Source: Flavobacterium channae
GTDB lineage: Bacteria > Bacteroidota > Bacteroidia > Flavobacteriales > Flavobacteriaceae
Length of the DNA: 64,000 nt
Direction: 5' to 3'
NCBI RefSeq assembly: GCF_021172165.1
Contig: NZ_CP089096.1
Coordinates: 2,108,001-2,172,000, forward strand
Under the pieces are notes generated by a model. That model searched no databases and had not been told where the DNA came from. It worked only from the letters and a program-made list of their open reading frames with translations. How positions within the stretch are numbered: position 1 is the first letter of the stretch; each line of letters starts with the position of its first letter. The translations under genes and the position numbers were made by a program. Below, in pieces: positions 49,116-60,472 of the stretch.

Positions 49116-49963
49116 AATCCTGGATTTTAATATATTACTTGACAAATATACATATTATGTATTTATTATTTGTTAAAAAAAACATCTTTTGAACGATAAA
49201 AAATGCATTTCATCTAAATTAATCGCAATTAAAAACCAAAAAAAACAGTTTTTAACTTAAAATTTTAAGAAAAACAATTTAACAAAAAGCAATAAAACTA
49301 GAGCAAAATTCTTAAAAATCGAATTAAAAAAAATTGTTTAAAATTCTATATTTAACAGTTATTTTGTGAAATTTAATCAATTTTAATGCCGATTTTAAGC
49401 AACAATATCAACTTGTTAGGCAATAAAAACAAACTCTTATCTATTCTTAAATTACCTTTTCATTTTCTAAAAAACGCATTTATTTCATTTACGAAAGAAC
49501 TATTTTCTTGGTTTTACAAATTTTAAAAAAAAGAGAAAAACCTTTTAAATCAAGAGAAATTCACAAACAAAACTATCGTGTTTCCTCAAAAAAATCTTTT
49601 CTAATTTTTTAATTTAAACATGCTTTCCAATATTAAAAAACAAATAATTATCTTTTTGTTGAAATCAAAACACACAAATACTAAACAACTTAATTTCAAC
49701 TAAATAAACCTACACATAAACGATTAAAATTTTGTAATTAAAAAAATAAATATACATTTGTTTATTAAACAGTTATTCTAAAAAAAGATACACTTATTCT
49801 TTTTTTTGAACAAACTATTCGTTACATTTACGATATTGTTACAATAAAAATTGAAAAAAAACAAAAAGCTAAAGAGTTTACTTACAATAAGTTATTTTTT
49901 TTGCCTACTTACTAAACATAAGCTTCCCCAAGCCTATTGTTTTACTTAAAATTTTTTATTTTT
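49116..49963. other. 848-base AT-rich intergenic region between divergent T9SS genes
   Basis: No coding frame, RNA or strong hairpin was seen. The region is very A/T-rich with long A and T runs. It contains the candidate promoters of both flanking genes (49143-49150 minus, 49732-49760 plus). The left two thirds show nothing I can interpret. Confidence 0.6.
49732..49760 (+). promoter_or_regulatory. Promoter of the first large surface-protein gene
   Basis: TTG (49732-49734), 18-base spacer, TACATTTG (49753-49760). It would give an unusually long leader of about 200 nt before the ATG at 49964. Confidence 0.6.
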
Positions 49964-52900
49964 ATGAAAAAAAATTACTTTCTGAAAAATGCAACAAAAA
50001 CTAGTACCCCTCTAGTTTTAAATTGCGAAAAAAAATCCTTGAAAAACATCTTTAAAAGTTTGTTTTTATTACTTTTTACGCTTTTAGGATTTTCTGATGC
50101 TTTTGGGCAAGTTGTCACAGATACCTACACCACAACTGGTGCAGGAACTTGGAAAGCCTATGCGGTGTGACCTCGGTTACCGTTGAAGCATGGGGAGCTG
50201 GAGGCTCTGGAGGAGGAAATACAGCAAATACAAGCCGAGGTGGTGGAGGTGGTGCAGGAGGCACATATGTAAGTTCTATTTTAACTGTTACTCCTGGTAC
50301 AACTTACAATTTATTTGTTGCACCAAATACTGTCGGAACAACATCAGCCGGCACTAAAGGCCAAGGCTCATGGTTTATAAACAACACAACCTTATTTGCT
50401 GAAGGAGGTAATGGAGGTGAAGCACCAAATGGAGGCACTGTTGCTGGTGGCACTGGATCAATAGCTTCAAGTATCGGAACTACTAGAATTGCAGGTGTTA
50501 ACGGATCGAATGGAACTTCTACAATAGGTGGCGCTGGAGGTACTGGAGGTAACTTTGGTGGCGCTGGAGGTATTCAAAGAACTTCAGAAAACGATGGAGC
50601 TAACGGGGCTACCCCTGGCGGCGGCGGCGGCGGCGCATATATTCCTGACAATACTAATCACACTGGTGGTAACGGAGCTAGAGGAGAAATAAGAATTACC
50701 TACACTGTCGTAACCCCTGCTAATCCATCCAACCCAACGAGTAATTCGCCACAATGTAACCCTCCTGGTGTTACTTTAACAAGAGTTGGTACACCTCCTG
50801 CTGGTGTAACATGGTATTGGCAAACAACAGCATTAGGTACAGACACTACCAATAGTGGTACAACTTTTAATGTAACAACTTCAGGAACATATTACTTAAG
50901 AGCTAGACATGATTTAACTGGTTGTTGGAGTGTAGGTTCAGGAAGTACTACTGTAACTGTATTAACAACCCCTTCAATTATAACAAACCCATCAAATTTC
51001 ACAACAAATAATGGAGGAACTGCTACCTTTACTGTGACAGCTAATAATTCTCCAACCTCATATACATGGCAAGTTAGTACTAATGGAGGTGCTACTTGGA
51101 CAACGATAACCAATGGTGGTATTTACAGTGGCGCAACAACTGCAACCTTAACTATAACAGGAGCTACATTGGCAATGGATGGTTATTTATACCACGCTTC
51201 TGCAACAAATGCTTGTGGTACATCTGCTTATTCAACAGCTGCAACATTAACAGTTAACAACATTGTTCTAGTAAGTGGTGCAGGCGTAAATAACGTAAGT
51301 TGTGGGTCAAATACAATTTTGAGAGATCATGCAGACACAGGTAATTATGCTAATGGCAGAAACGATTGGAGTGTAATTAATGTTAACTCAACAGCACAAG
51401 TTACAATTTCCGGAACATACAATACAGAAAACAACTTTGATTTTATAAGAATATATGATGGAGTTGGAATTGGAGGAACTCTTTTAGCCTCTTACACAGG
51501 AGTCGGAGGAACAATTAATTTTACAAGTCTTGTAGGTCAAACCGTAACCATACAATTCCAATCGGATGTAAGCAACGTAAATACAGGTTTTGAATTAAAT
51601 GTTAGTTATTCTGGAACTTGTAATATTCCATGTGTTGCTCCTACTGCACTGCCTACTAGTTTATCATTTATACCTTATGGAACTGTCATTTCAGGAACAT
51701 TTAATCATGCTATACCTCAACCTGATAATTACTTGGTTATAATTAGCACGAGTGCTACTCCTCCTAGTCCAGTTAATGGAACCTCATATGCAGTAGGAAG
51801 TACTGTAGGTGCTGGATACACAGTAATTTCAAACACAAGTAATAATACTTTTTCAGCCACAGGACTAAGCAATTTCACAACATATTATTTTTATATCTAC
51901 TCATATAGTAGTTTATGTATTGGAGGGCCAATATATCTTGGAACACTTTCTGGTAGCTCAACAACTACAGGAACAACTCCTTATTGTGTACCAACTTCAA
52001 ATGTTAGTACTAGATGGATTGATGGAGTTTGGACTGTTGGTTATATAACTGATATCAACAATAGAAACACTGGAAGAGCTGCTTCAGGTTATTCAGATTT
52101 TACTGCAGCACCACCTGTTACACAAATACCAGGAGGTGGAGTTACACTAGATTATTTCTTGAGAACATCAAGACAATTTGTTAAAATTTGGGTAGACTGG
52201 AATAACGACGGAACATTTACAGATGCTGCACCAGAACTTGTTTACACAACAGGAGGAGTTCAAACCATAGCTGGATCTGGTGGATTTGTTGTACCTATTG
52301 CGACTTTACCAGGAAATTACAGAATTCGAATCAGATCATTTGAAACATCACAAACATTTGGACCATGTGGCAACTTAACAACAGGTGAAACAGAAGATTA
52401 CAGATTAGTTGTTGTTGCTGATTGCTTAGCTAAACCTACAACTCTACATGATGGAGAAAGATGTGATAATGGCACAGTTGTTTTAGGTGTTGAAGGCTCA
52501 CCTGGTGTAACCCAATATAGATTTTACGATTCTTTATATGGAGGAACATTAATTGGTTCTCAAGCAGCTGTTCCTGGAATCACTAATTGGACAACACCAT
52601 TCTTAACTGCTACTACTAAATATTATGTAACTGCATTCAATGGCACTTGTGAATCATGGTATCGTCAAGAAATTGTTGCAACTGTAAATCCAACAGCAAA
52701 TATTGTAGTTACTCCCTCAGTTCCTGAAGTTTGTGGAGAAAACAATGTAGTTCAAATTGATGCAGGAGGTGACTTTGTAATTGATTACTTAGTCAACGAA
52801 AATTTTGAAGGCGGCGGTTTTGGAGTATTAAACAGAGTTAACATCTCAGCAAATGCTGACACACAATGGACAAACAGAACAAGTCCCTATGTTCCTAATG

Positions 52901-55251
52901 GAGCTGTTTGGAAACCTGCAATTACATCAAAATCTATCGGAAATAGATTCGTTTGTGCAAACTCAGATTTTCCATTAAATCCTAAAGACACACAACTTAG
53001 AACTGCGGTATTAGATGCATCAGCTTATTCTGATCTGTTTTTAAGTTTTAGACATTATTTTTCATATTATCCAGGAGAGCCATCTCAGTTTGCGGATGTC
53101 GACATTTCGATTGACGGAGGTGCTACATGGCCAACCACTATAGCCAGCTACACTTCTAATCAAGCATTTGCAGGTCAATTTGACCAAGTAGTAATTGATT
53201 TGTCTGCTTATGCCGGACAACCAAGTTTAATGATAAGATTTAGATTTCATCTTGCAGGTGGTTCAGCATGGGCTGATGGTTGGGCTATTGATGATATCCA
53301 AGTATATGGAACAAGACCTTTAAATACAACATTTACATGGACAGGAGGAACCGTTTCAGCATTTACTGACCCAGCTTGTACTATACCCTATGTTGCACAA
53401 TCTGTAACAACTGTATATGTAAGACCAACAGCATTACAATTAGCTTCAACTTCATGGTCATTTACAGCCAATGCTACACTAGGTAACGGATGTCCAATTT
53501 CAGAGTTTATTACAATTAACAATAAAACAAAACTTTGGAAAGGTGGTACAAATGGAGATTGGTATAATGCTAATAACTGGGAACCTATAGGCGTTCCAGA
53601 TTCAAATACTTGTGTTTATATTTATGATGGACCTAATGATTCTTACATAAATACGAGTGCAAATGATGCTTTTGCTAGGATTGTAACTGTTAGACCAAAT
53701 GGTCAGTTACAAATTGAAGCCGATAATACTTTAACTGTAACTGATGCAGTCACAGTCGATGCTGGTGGAACTTTCAATATTGAAAACTCAGCTAGTTTAA
53801 TCCAAGTTAACAATGTAGCAAATACAGGAAACATTACCATGAGACGTAATGTAAACATCAGACAATTAGATTATGTTTACTGGTCATCACCTGTTGCTAA
53901 TTTTGCTTCAAGTGCCGTTTCACCTTTAACACCAACAGGATTCATTTACAAATGGGCACCTACACTTGGTAGTACCGTTAACAATCATGGAAATTGGATT
54001 GGTGGAAACGAAAGCATGGTAAATGGTAAAGGTTATATTTTGAGAGGTCCGAGTACATATACATCAACATTACAAAACTTTACTGCAAATTTTGTTGGAG
54101 TACCAAACAATGGAAACATTACAATACCTGTCAGTAGAGGTACATATGATGGTGCAAATTACAATACAGGACTTTCATCTACATTAGCAACTAGAGATGA
54201 TGACAATTGGAATTTATTAGGAAACCCATATCCATCTGCAATTAGTGCTAATACATTCTTAGCAACGAATACTAATCTAGCTGGATTTATTAAATTTTGG
54301 ACTCACGGAACTTTACCATCAGCTGTTGCATCTGATCCATTCTACAATAATTATGCACAAAATTATACAGTTGCAGATTATGTAACTTACAATGCGACTG
54401 GAGCAAATCCACCTATAGGAAATGGTAATATCGCAGCAGGACAAGGTTTCTTCGTATTAATGAATCATACGTCAGCTGCTACAACAGAGAATGTAGTTTT
54501 CAATAATAGCATGAGAAGAAATGACTACAGAAATGACCTTTTCTTCAGAAATTCAAATACAACTAACTCTGAAAATGAAGAAAAACATAGAATTTGGTTA
54601 AATTTAATTAGTCCATCAGCAACATCAAGCACTACTTTAGTAGGATATGTTTCAGGAGCAACTAATGACTTAGACAGAATGTATGATGCACCTGCTTTAG
54701 ATGTTAAAACAAACTTTGAATTATATTCGTTCTCTAATACAGACAAATTAAATATTCAAGGAAAGTCATTACCATTTAACGATACAGATCAAATTCCATT
54801 AGGTATCTCAATTGCTCAAAATGGAATACATACTTTAGGAATTTCAACAGTTGATGGATTATTTGATTCTGCTTCACAAGGAATATATCTTGAAGATAGA
54901 AATTTAGGCATTACTCACGATTTAAGAGTAGCTCCGTATAGCTTTACTGCTACTACTGGTAGATTTGAAAATCGTTTTGTATTGAAGTTCAACAATGAAA
55001 CGTTAGGTAATGAAGACTTTATTGGAAATAATGTAACCGTTTATACTAATGAAAGCATTAATATTAGTGCTCCAAACCAAGTTATTAAATCGGTACGCGT
55101 ACACGATTTACTTGGTCGAGTTTTAGGAATATTTAATAATGTAAATAGTGATTCATTCTCTTCTAAAAACATTGCTAAAACACAAAGTCCTCTATTAGTA
55201 GAAGTGACTTTAGAAAATGGTGCAACTAAAACCTATAAAGTGATATTCTAA
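49964..55251 (+). pseudogene. Large T9SS type C surface protein, frameshifted after the signal peptide
   Basis: An intact signal peptide (LFLLLFTLLGFSDAFGQ) reads in frame to TYTTTGAGTW, then hits TGA at 50168. The rest continues for about 1700 codons in the -1 frame from GVTSVTVEAWGAGG. Approximate parts: Gly-rich region 50180-50700, Ig-like 50720-51260, CUB-like 51300-51620, fibronectin-like 51630-51970, GEVED domain 52000-52420, Ig-like 52440-52700, MAM/choice-of-anchor-like 52790-53320, shared YWSSP/GNPYPSAI module 53530-54540, and type C sorting domain 55010-55251 (IKSVRVHDLLGRVLG). Such proteins are secreted adhesins or enzymes. Apart from the frameshift the frame is perfect, so it is either recently broken, phase-variable, or a sequence error. 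The ATG at 49964 fits the signal peptide. Confidence 0.85.
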
Positions 55252-55273
55252 ACTAAAGTTAGATTTTAAATGT

Positions 55274-55304
55274 ATAAAGGGCAAACATCTGTTTGCCCTT
55301 TATT
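55274..55304 (+). terminator. Terminator after the first large surface-protein gene
   Basis: ATAAAGGGCAAAC-ATCT-GTTTGCCCTTTAT: an 11-bp or longer perfect stem with T-rich tail. Confidence 0.85.
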
Positions 55305-55421
55305 ATTTATTAAAAACTCAAGTAGTTAACCTAAAAAAAATAAGATGTGTTTTTTTAAGGACATAAAACACAAAAGTTATCAACAAATTGTCTTTTTTTT
55401 AACAAATGTTTCATTATAAAC

Positions 55422-55451
55422 TTGTATAGTTCACAAAAAAAATTAAATTTG
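55422..55451 (+). promoter_or_regulatory. Promoter of the second large surface-protein gene
   Basis: TTG (55422-55424), 19-base spacer, TAAATTTG (55444-55451), about 45 nt of leader before the ATG at 55501. Confidence 0.78.
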
Positions 55452-55500
55452 TTGGAAAATCAACACAATCAACTGTAAACTACAATTATTTAACTTAAAA

Positions 55501-58500
55501 ATGAAAACTATTCCCCTCTTTCAGAAAAACTTTTGGGTTTTTCTTTTTTTTATTTTCTCAACTACAACGTTTTCGCAAACTACAGAAACTTTCACAACCT
55601 CTGGTTCTTGGACAGTCCCTGCGAGTAACTTCGGTTACTGTTGAAATATGGGGCGCTGGTGGTGGTGGTGGTGGTTCTAATACTAATGGATCTGGTGGGT
55701 CTGGAGGAGGCTCAGGGGCTTATGCTTCTAAAACAATGATAGTAACACCTTCTACAAATTACACGTTCACAATAGGAACTGGGGGAGCTGGAGGAGCTGC
55801 AAATACAGCTACTGGAGGTAACGGAGGTGATTCTACAATAAATTTTGGTGGATTAATAACTGCTGGTGGTGGAACTGGTGGAGCAAGAAACAATGGTGCT
55901 GTTGGGACTGGCGGAGTCGCTTCTGGAGGAACAACAAACACAAATGGAAACCCTGGAATGGCGGGTACTACATCTGGGGGAAATGGAGGTAGCGCTCCAA
56001 ATGGAGGTACTGGAGGTACTGGAAGTACAAATGCGGCTGGCAATCCTGGAAACACACCCGGTGGCGGTGGCGGTGGTGGAGAAAGAGGCGGTGGAAATCA
56101 ACCTGGTGGTTCTGGAGCACGTGGTGAAATACGTTTCACATATACTGTAACTAGCCCATGTACATCAGCTATAAACTTACCTTGCGGAACTACAAATCTT
56201 GCAGGAACAACTGTTGGTAGTTCAAATTTCACCCATAACAGTGGGTGCTTAATGAGTAATTATGGAGCATGGTACACTTTTGTTGGAGACGGACAACAAA
56301 CAACAATTACCTCTACTGCAGGCGCTGGATTTGATCATGAAATGTCAATTTCATCAGGTAGTTGTGGAACACTAACAAATATTGCTTGTCAAGATTCAGG
56401 TTTGTCAGGCGGAACTGAAACCTATACTTTTATTTCATCAGCTGGAGTAAATTATTATGTTTATATAGCTTATTATAGTTCTACTGGCACAGCTACTGAC
56501 ACAGGAACTTTTACAATTTCTAGAACTTGTACTCCTATAGTATCTCCCGCAAATGACAATTGCTCTGGAGCTATAGCATTAACTGTAAATCCAGATCTAA
56601 ATTGCGGAACGGTGACTAGTGGAACAGTTCAATTTGCAACTGATTCTGGAATAACAGGAAGTGGATGTTTTGGCACAGACGACGATGATGTTTGGTATCG
56701 ATTCGTAGCAACAAACACAACACATCATGTGAGTTTATTAAATATTTCTGGTAGCGCAACAGATCTGTACCATGCTGTATATTCTGGAGCTTCAGGTTGT
56801 GGTTCACTTGGAGCTGCCATAACATGTTCTGATCCAAATTCAAGTATTTTAACAGGCTTAACAATTGGACAAACTTATTATGTACAAGTTTACTCCTATA
56901 CAAGTACAACAGGTCAAAACACTACATTCAATATTTGCATTGGAACTCCCCCTCCCCCTCCATCAAATGATAATTGTAGTGGGGCTATAACCTTAACCGT
57001 AAATCCAGACACAAGTTGTGCAGTCGTTACAGCTGGAACTGTTGCTTCAGCCACAGATTCAGGAATTGCAGGCAGTGGTTGTTTTGGTACAGATGATGAT
57101 GACGTTTGGTATCGATTTGTAGCAACTAACACTACTCATTACGTTAACTTATTAAATGTTACCGGTAGTGCAACCGACATGTATCACGCTGTATATTCTG
57201 GAGCTTCAGGATGCGGAACTCTTGGTGCTGCAATTTTATGTTCAGATTCAGATTCAAGTATTGTAAATGGTTTAACAATTGGACAAACTTATTATGTACA
57301 AGTATACACCTATACAAGTACAGGAGGACAAACTACAAATTTTAATATCTGTATTGGAACTCCTCCACCTCCTCCCTCAAACGATAATTGTAGTGGGGCC
57401 ATCTCATTAACCGTAAATACAGATCTTAGTTGTACAACTACAACTGCAGGAAGTGTTGCATCAGCAACGGATTCTGGCATTGCCGGAAGTGGATGATTTG
57501 GCACAGATGATGATGATGTTTGGTATCAATTTGTAGCAACTAACACTACTCATTATGTTAACTTATTAAATGTTACTGGCAGTACAACTGACATGTACCA
57601 TGCAGTATATTCTGGCGCCTCTGGCTGTGGTTCACTTGGTGCCGCATTAGTATGTTCAGATTCAGATTCAAGTATCGTAAATGGCTTAACCATCGGACAA
57701 ACTTATTATGTACAAGTTTATACCTATACAAGTACTGGTGGACAAACTTCAAATTTCAACATCTGTATCGGAACACCTTGTAATGGAAATGGTCCAGGAA
57801 CTGGAACAACTGATTTAGGATGTCCTTCAGTAGTTTCTGGTGGATTAGGACTAAATGGCGCTGATCATAATGCTATTTTATGTACTGCAGCTTCTACTTG
57901 TGTAGATTTAGAAGCCACCTATTTAGACTTAGGAAATACTTCTACTTATAGAGTAGAATCAATCCCATACAATCCTCCTTATCAGTTTACTTGTTTAGAA
58001 AATCCTGTAAGTGTGGATACAGACGACGTTTGGTCTCCGGTTATTAATTTACCTTTTAATTTTTGTTTTTATGGCAACACCTACAATCAATGTTTAATTG
58101 GTTCAAACGGAGTTATTACATTTGATTTAGGAAGCAATACTGCAGGTGGTACTTGTGATTGGGAATTTGATTCTACTAATCCAGGGCAACTTCCAGTTAG
58201 CGGACATTCGTCACTAATTGAAAACGCAATTTTTGGTGTTTTCCATGACATTAACCCGGGAGTAAGCGGTGAAGTTGGATGGGAATTAATCACATTAAAC
58301 ACAGGCTGTAGAGCACTTGTTGCTTCATGGAGTAGCGTTCCTCTATTTGGAGATAATTCTAAAATATATACAGGGATGATTGTGTTATATGAAAATTCAA
58401 ACGTCATAGAAGTTTACATTCAGAATAAGCCTTTAGATCCTGACGCTTGGAATGATAACAATGCTGTTGTCGGAATTCAAAATGCAGCAGGTACTCTTGC

Positions 58501-60472
58501 AGCTGTTGCACCAGGAAGAAATGCATTAGACGCTGACTGGACAGCAACCAATGAAGCTTGGAGATTTATCCCTGATGGTACTTCGATTGCAACATTAAGA
58601 TGGCATGAAGGTTCTGGAACATCTGGACCAGTTATAGGAACTACTCCAGTAATCAATGTATGCCCAACTGCCACTACAACTTATACAGCTGCAATTACTT
58701 ATACTTTATGTAATGGATCAACCCTTGTAGAAACAGAAGAAACTATAGTTACAATTAATGGTTCCAAAGTATGGAATGGTTCTTTAAATACTGACTGGGA
58801 TACAGCTAACAACTGGACACCTGCAGGAGTTCCAACCGCTTCAGATTGCGTTGTCATCCCTGACACAGCAAATGATCCAATCATTTCAGGAACAAATTAC
58901 AATGGTTTAGGATTGAATTTAACTGTTCAAAACAATGCTGCTTTGACTGTAACTTCAAATAATGACTTAACCATTACAGAATGGGTTAACATTAACACAA
59001 CAGGTGATTTAATTTTACAAAATAGTGCAAGTTTACTTCAAATCAATAATGATGTTAATCAAGGAACTATGCACATGACCAGAACTGCAAATATCAGAAA
59101 ATTAGATTATGTATATTGGTCATCTCCTGTTTCAAATTTCAGCGTTAATAATGTTTCACCGGGAACTACTGGTAATAAATACAAATGGATTCCTACAATC
59201 GCATCTAACATAAATGGTTTTTGTAATTGGGTCGGAGCAAATGAAAATATGGTTCTTGGAAAAGGATATATCGTAAGAGGTCCAGATAGTTTTACATCTA
59301 CAGTCACCCCTTTTAATGCCGTTTTTGCCGGAACTCCAAATAATGGCATTATTTCAACTCCTATTTTGAGAGGCACATGGAATGGAGGTACGTATTCTAC
59401 AGGGGTATCAACAACTCTTGGAACAAACCATGATGATAATTGGAATTTAATTGGAAATCCTTATCCATCTGCAGTAAGAGCTATTGACTTCTTGACATTA
59501 AATACAAATATTGACGGATTCATTAAAATATGGACTCATGGAACTTTACCAAGTTCTGCTATTGCTGATCCATTTTACAATAATTATACCTATAACTATA
59601 CTCCTGGAGATTACATCACTTACAATAGTTCAGGAACTTCGTCAGGACCTGGTGTTTTTAATGGAAATATAGCCGCAGGACAAGGATTTTTTGTATTGAT
59701 GCATCATACATCTGCTTCTGCTTCTGAAAATGTTACATTTAACAACTCTATGAGAAGCAGTACTTATGACAATAGCCAATTTTTCAGAACTTCTAATGAA
59801 AATGGAAGAATTTGGTTAGATTTAGTTGCATCAAACGGAACAAACATCCGAAATCTTGTTGCTTATGTTGATGGCGCTTCTAATAACAGAGATCGTTTAT
59901 TTGATGCAATAACTGATGAAAAATTAAATTTCAATTTGTATAGTTTGATTGGCGACTTACCTATGACGATTCAAGGAAGAACATTACCATTTGACCAAGA
60001 AGATCGCGTTCCAATGGGAATCAAAGTTTCACAAAATGGAAATTATACAATTGGTATTGGCGCTGTTGATGGTTTCTTTACTAATACTAATCAAAACATT
60101 TATCTTGAAGATTTAGAAAATAATATTATTCATGACTTGAGACAAAATCCATATAGCTTTACTGCTGAGGCAGGAAACTATCCAAATCGTTTTGTATTAC
60201 GATACACGAACGAAACTTTAGGTGGCGATGATTTAGTAGTTGATGATGCTAATTTATGGGTGTACTCTTCAGATGTATTATCTGTGAAATCAACAAAAAA
60301 TACAATTCAATCGGTAAGAGTATTTGATGTTTTAGGAAGACACTTAGCCTACTATCCAAATGTTGATGGCTATGAAGTTCCTTTAACTACCATTCAAAAA
60401 AACAATGCTGGATTAATAATTCAAGTTACATTATCTAACGGATCTGTTATTAGTAAAAAAGCGATTTACTAA
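55501..60472 (+). pseudogene. Large T9SS type C repeat protein, frameshifted and with an internal TGA
   Basis: A signal peptide (WVFLFFIFSTTTFSQ) reads to SGSWTVPA, then the frame is lost (TGA at 55642) and resumes in the +1 frame at VTSVTVEIWGAGG. A Gly-rich region follows (55650-56150), then a PPC-like segment and three exact-length 138-residue repeats (56552-57778). In the third repeat a TGA at 57494-57496 replaces the TGT (Cys) found in the other two. The frame then continues to a nidogen-like region (about 57990-58590), the shared YWSSP/GNPYPSAI module (58770-59770) and a type C sorting domain ending at 60472. Without these two lesions it would be a protein of about 1650 residues. The promoter and terminator are intact. 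Confidence 0.85.
56552..57778 (+). repeat. Three tandem 414-bp repeats (138 residues each)
   Basis: Copies start at 56552, 56966 and 57380, with exactly 414 bases each and the third slightly shorter. Each begins NDNCSGAI, contains GCFGTDDDDVWYRFVATNTTH, YHAVYSGASGCGS and GLTIGQTYYVQVY, and ends in CIGTP followed by a Pro run. The fold resembles bacterial pre-peptidase (PPC) domains. Confidence 0.93.

Follow-up and report, generated by a model that had tools for sequence, protein, structure and literature searches.

Two giant surface-protein genes of Flavobacterium channae carry N-terminal modules that differ from those of their near-identical alleles, and both have lost the reading frame at one codon position behind the signal peptide. 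They lie in the window, a stretch of 64,000 nucleotides (NZ_CP089096.1, positions 2,108,001 to 2,172,000). The differing modules are probably explained by exchange of the tip module (probability about 0.6), and the breaks would then be scars of imperfect exchange or consensus errors where alleles diverge. Neither body has an in-frame signal peptide; therefore, neither protein would be exported as written.

Gene layout and the two break sites

Both genes share one architecture: a leader, a signal peptide, a Gly_rich_2 module, Ig-like, GEVED and galactose-binding-like domains, and a sorting domain (Table 1). The modules belong to the Gly_rich_2 family (PF21722), with 32.5 and 46.7 bits at a Pfam gathering cut-off of 24.3. 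In the predicted structure, the match to a phage tail-fibre-tip-like Gly-rich fold spans the whole domain. S16 gp38 was absent from the fold-search results, which is no evidence against a relation. The C-terminal domains align with all 55 positions of NF033708, but their 27.1 and 30.8 bits (33.0 and 37.4 in a second scoring) fall below the cut-off of 40 for this family. The signal peptides of a T9SS type C protein are present, out of frame with the bodies, and the bodies of both genes are under purifying selection. Both genes apparently encode giant surface proteins that are exported by the T9SS and held by the C-terminus; the N-terminus is therefore probably the outermost tip. This tip is modelled as a self-contained Gly-rich module with a phage tail-fibre-tip fold.

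Table 1. Positions of the features of the two genes in the window.
Feature	Position	Strand	Remarks
Gene 1, 5' leader	49880..49963	+	Resembles leaders of orthologous loci L052, L054, L058 (AACATAAGCTTCCCCAAGCC...) in alignment
Gene 1, signal peptide and first mature residues (...FGQVVTDTYTTTGAGTW)	49964..50152	+	59/63 identical to P0001
Gene 1, break site	50153..50166	+	Frame lost, body in -1 frame; K-A-Y replaces conserved Pro
Gene 1, exchangeable N-terminal module, Gly_rich_2 (PF21722)	50167..50709	+	Phage tail-fibre-tip fold (predicted structure)
Gene 1, body (Ig-like, GEVED, Ig_7, others)	50710..55251	+	Open; 1506/1514 residues shared with P0001
Gene 1, C-terminal T9SS-type-C-like sorting domain	55084..55248	+	NF033708 27.1 bits, cut-off 40
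Gene 2, signal peptide	55501..55578	+	26/26 identical to P0121
Gene 2, first module residues in signal-peptide frame, until break	55579..55621	+	Body in +1 frame
Gene 2, exchangeable N-terminal module, Gly_rich_2	55625..56152	+	Pfam 46.7 bits, cut-off 24.3
Gene 2, 414-bp tandem repeat (GBD_T9SS_assoc units)	56636..57774	+	
Gene 2, in-frame TGA, third repeat unit	57494..57496	+	Units 1 and 2 and P0121 have Cys here
Gene 2, C-terminal T9SS-type-C-like sorting domain	60305..60469	+	NF033708 30.8 bits, cut-off 40

The frames and translations showed that both genes are broken where the original prediction had placed the breaks, in opposite directions and with no homopolymer at either. The signal-peptide frame of gene 1 stops near 50170 as ...TGAGTWKAYAV*; the -1 frame, open between 50149 and 55251, encodes the body VTSVTVEAWGAGG.... 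Translation of gene 2 from its signal peptide gives ...SGSWTVPAS...; its body, VTSVTVEIWGAGG..., is read in the +1 frame. Everything else had been described as open; this holds for the body of gene 1, but gene 2 contains an in-frame TGA. The K-A-Y of gene 1 had been suspected to be a scar, and Pro indeed occupies this position in 70 of the 71 copies caught by the pattern among 240 fetched homologues. The gene 1 site therefore departs from the family by several bases.

Neither break site showed a tandem repeat or had an inverted-repeat pair nearby; thus both lack the simple repeat or inverted repeats of a phase-variable locus. The predicted DNA fold gave no hairpin signal at the sites (z 0.47 to -1.24). 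Hairpin-driven slippage at the GTAAC-TTCG-GTTAC stem of gene 2 was also considered and rejected, the stem being within chance expectation. Within the window, the word AAGCCTAT has just two occurrences: 49930, in the leader of gene 1, and 50154, at its break. The density of this word in sampled DNA is 22 per Mb on both strands. One given word would recur within 250 bases in roughly 1% of cases, and several words are possible; the pair is no more than suggestive of a template switch, from the 5' leader, behind the gene 1 break.

Probable module exchange behind the signal peptide

Gene 1 and P0001 share 59/63 residues in the signal-peptide part, 134/180 in the module and 1506/1514 in the rest. 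Gene 2 and P0121 share 26/26, 87/173 and 1395/1438, respectively. Among the 240 fetched proteins, the gene 2 module is closest to those of P0144/P0145 (89%), compared with 87/173 for the same-locus allele; both window modules are closest to modules on proteins with more divergent bodies. Bodies at least 95% identical (compared after residue 400, with at least 600 aa aligned) were found in 13 pairs of the fetched homologues. Two of these involve P0147, which has no N-terminus, and were set aside. In the remaining 11 pairs, the modules were unrelated or below 70% identical in eight and at least 90% identical in three; because clustering of the protein database at 90% identity favours differing pairs, 8/11 gives examples and not a rate. 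Pairs with bodies 90-95% identical had differing modules in 12 cases and similar ones in three. Many of the compared pairs stem from metagenome assemblies, in which chimeras are possible. Differing modules on near-identical proteins, the mark of allelic exchange, were thus seen for both genes and for eight further pairs.

The common prefix of these eight pairs ends at the signal-peptide Gln in five, three residues before it in two, and, in the last pair, within the Gly module. Prefix identity ranges from 18/26 to 80/83, and two pairs share only 18/26 and 22/26 of the signal-peptide part. The leader and signal-peptide DNA of gene 1 aligns with two MAGs and the isolate F. aquaticum, and the similarity stops at the same codon. 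Near-identical bodies are thus shown to carry different or even unrelated modules, with the switch at or a few residues from the cleavage site; between two Gly modules, it follows directly on the conserved strand with which the module opens. The original prediction had proposed a recombination hotspot for signal-peptide/promoter cassettes that switches proteins on and off. The hotspot survives in part, as exchange of the N-terminal module behind the signal peptide and not of a signal-peptide/promoter cassette; the switching is not supported.

Modules probably pass between cells by homologous recombination, with the conserved leader and signal peptide as one arm and the body as the other. Such exchange would change the specificity of the surface protein while leaving the parts for export and anchoring intact. 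In the own genome (2.81 Mb, one contig), neither 5' region turned up a second time, the longest other match being 62 bases, and a search of this genome for the Gly-rich module gave two matches only. From the parts of the genome that were read, exchange between cells would fit better than a store of silent cassettes. In the loci of relatives, module-like matches lie mostly inside T9SS-type genes. Three such matches in sampled stretches of the own genome (L138, L164, L166; 30-56% identity) sit within long genes of their own, which by eye end like T9SS substrates and are not orphan cassettes.

Frame status in relatives and the cause of the breaks

Comparison of the junction with relatives, suggested as a check in the original prediction, found 31 of 31 other motif copies in frame. 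These are the motif matches in the fetched loci; L028, L033, L036, L039, L044, L045 and L048 were unmatched and left out, and for 24 of the 54 hits, including gene 2 itself, there was no locus. Five of the copies (L030, L031, L032, L046, L050) look internal and not directly behind a signal peptide; another, L040, has its break downstream of the site, in the 3' part of its Gly module. The near-identical alleles P0001 and P0121 are both in frame at the site. At least 321 of 398 genus genomes have a homologue of the gene 1 C-terminal part at E <= 1e-60. The 5' ends of the best 40 non-own homologues were read by eye; one lies at a contig end, and among the 39 judgeable, 35 have an in-frame signal peptide and four are interrupted. 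The four come from two genomes (L258 and L259 in one; L256 and L260 in another); L040 belongs to a third. Of the four, L258 is broken where its Gly module ends on the 3' side, L259 near residue 370-390, L260 near residue 170-195 at the end of a GEVED-looking module, and L256 further down the gene than these three. Frame loss around N-terminal modules thus recurs among relatives, though at other codons: none of the 31 motif copies and none of the 39 judgeable 5' ends is broken at the codon of genes 1 and 2.

The sorting domain has 23 matches in the own genome at E <= 0.001, six of which exceed the cut-off. Twenty lie outside the window, and 18 of these have an in-frame signal peptide by eye. 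L264 is a match in a gene without a 5' end, and L267 is a 44-codon remnant. Among the fetched homologues, P0147 (1433 aa, 12 contigs) is 98% identical to P0135 over its length, without signal peptide and first module; it may be another broken 5' end.

The frame losses, peculiar to this genome, fall within the module's first strand, close to the 5' edge of the module; they are therefore best read as exchange scars or consensus errors. A real scar or inactivation comes close to even odds, and so does a sequence or consensus error; anything programmed or switching is improbable. The scar agrees with the position near the module edge, the multiple base changes in gene 1 and the TGA in gene 2. Intact alleles, conserved bodies and two further genes with lost frames in the assembly speak for the error. 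Reads from mixed alleles would break the consensus exactly where the alleles part, so scar and error may share one cause, a polymorphism at the module border. Against the exchange scar stand the 0/31 and 0/39 at this codon, since frequent scarring would predict some.

The strongest rival is that basecalling faults or a mixed-strain consensus in the hypervariable Gly/GC-rich stretch disrupted the sequence and both genes are intact in the cell, which is a serious contender at somewhat under even odds. A frame-loss screen covered 1.064 Mb (51 stretches, 377 neighbour pairs; short segments are missed). The aspartate kinase/homoserine dehydrogenase gene is also broken between its halves (L131 ~6519, near C1:1506519), and a nitroreductase-like gene, recognized by eye, loses its frame mid-gene (L150 ~17540, near C1:1617540); weaker candidates include L168 ~19365. 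These two unrelated housekeeping genes favour a sequence or assembly error. The modules are also GC-rich (0.48 and 0.50, against 0.33 for the whole window) and variable between strains, and P0001 and P0121 are intact. However, the two are the only clear losses elsewhere in about 1 Mb, against two at one codon position here; the gene 1 site differs by more than one base, and gene 2 bears a substitution to TGA, albeit in an error-prone 414-bp tandem repeat. A urocanate hydratase neighbour, suspected to be broken, is intact in its part inside the window (to 63992), and the candidate coding switches in L139 and L136 resemble normal borders between genes. GGCC, GATC and similar words were counted in 664 kb of the own genome, with a view to a systematic base-calling motif that the four broken genes might share. 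In the 664 kb, GATC was about 2.6 times and GGCC about 1.9 times rarer than expected, hinting at restriction avoidance.

Plain decay would mean that both genes were lost for unrelated reasons, such as phage or culture selection, and broke at the same codon by chance or at a mutational hotspot; it is unlikely. The extra TGA and the multi-base change in gene 1 favour recent decay or a real scar. The incomplete sorting-domain genes of the own genome, the four interrupted genes of relatives and the later break in L040 are likewise consistent with decay. However, the chance of a second break within two codons of the first is about 0.003-0.005 (5/1650 or 5/1100) if breaks are uniformly placed along the genes, the sites show no hairpin signal, and the bodies are under purifying selection.

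A switch that would turn the proteins on and off, by recombining the two genes with each other or with stored cassettes, is very unlikely and was rejected: both copies are off at the same place and the same locus carries different modules in different strains, but either signal peptide joined to the other body at the shared TGCG stays out of frame, flanking inverted repeats were not found, the own genome showed no second 5' copies and only two Gly-module matches, and the other module-like matches in its sampled stretches are not orphan cassettes. Programmed ribosomal frameshifting, put forward from the long conserved open body past the break as a way to unite signal peptide and body, is hardly credible with opposite directions in the two genes, no slippery sequence by eye at the shift, and all 31 other copies and both near-identical alleles in frame.

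Beyond tip-module exchange itself, a broader and rather doubtful proposal is a system by which flavobacteria diversify their giant T9SS surface fibres. Phage-fibre-like and other tip modules would be swapped as units exactly behind the signal peptide, and the border would be a hot zone where imprecise repair leaves genes transiently silent, as both might be here.

Relation to known systems

Domain exchange in T9SS surface proteins is already known. The gingipain/adhesin system of P. gingivalis, in the parts of PMC5266723 consulted, combines domain rearrangement with allelic exchange in T9SS-exported proteins; as here, domain variants are mosaic across strains against the phylogeny. The variable parts described there are internal catalytic and adhesin domains, whereas here the whole N-terminal module behind the signal peptide varies and unrelated modules interchange. 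RemZ (Fjoh_0803) of F. johnsoniae, a homologue of RemA, is a T9SS substrate (passages of PMC10994853), and its chain matches the Gly-rich profile over residues 2-201 of 1114; a Gly-rich module is likewise present in both genes. Unlike theirs, its sorting domain is type A, and only the CTD is well resolved in the structure; the same passages hold no description of module exchange. Polymorphic toxins also carry exchangeable terminal domains on a more constant protein, but exchange the C-terminal ones (PMC3482391, in part), whereas the N-terminal end is concerned here; unlike for the toxins, no standalone module cassettes were found in the own-genome parts searched.

At title and abstract level, the literature search found no account of N-terminal modules being exchanged or varied in surface proteins of flavobacteria or Bacteroidetes, and none of a whole N-terminal tip changing hands at the border of the signal peptide. 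If true, such exchange would offer this large environmental genus a testable route to altered adhesion, predation or phage sensitivity, and the 5' ends of such genes would be places to doubt assemblies and annotations. Gly-rich tips are described for the phage Pam3 tail fibre gp24 and, cited there, for S16 gp38 (PMC9608196, in part); unlike these, the module here forms the N-terminus of a bacterial surface protein and is a putative binder. Should the exchange hold, bacteria would diversify the ends of their surface fibres using a type of module that phages vary at the tips of their tails, with export and anchor parts unchanged.
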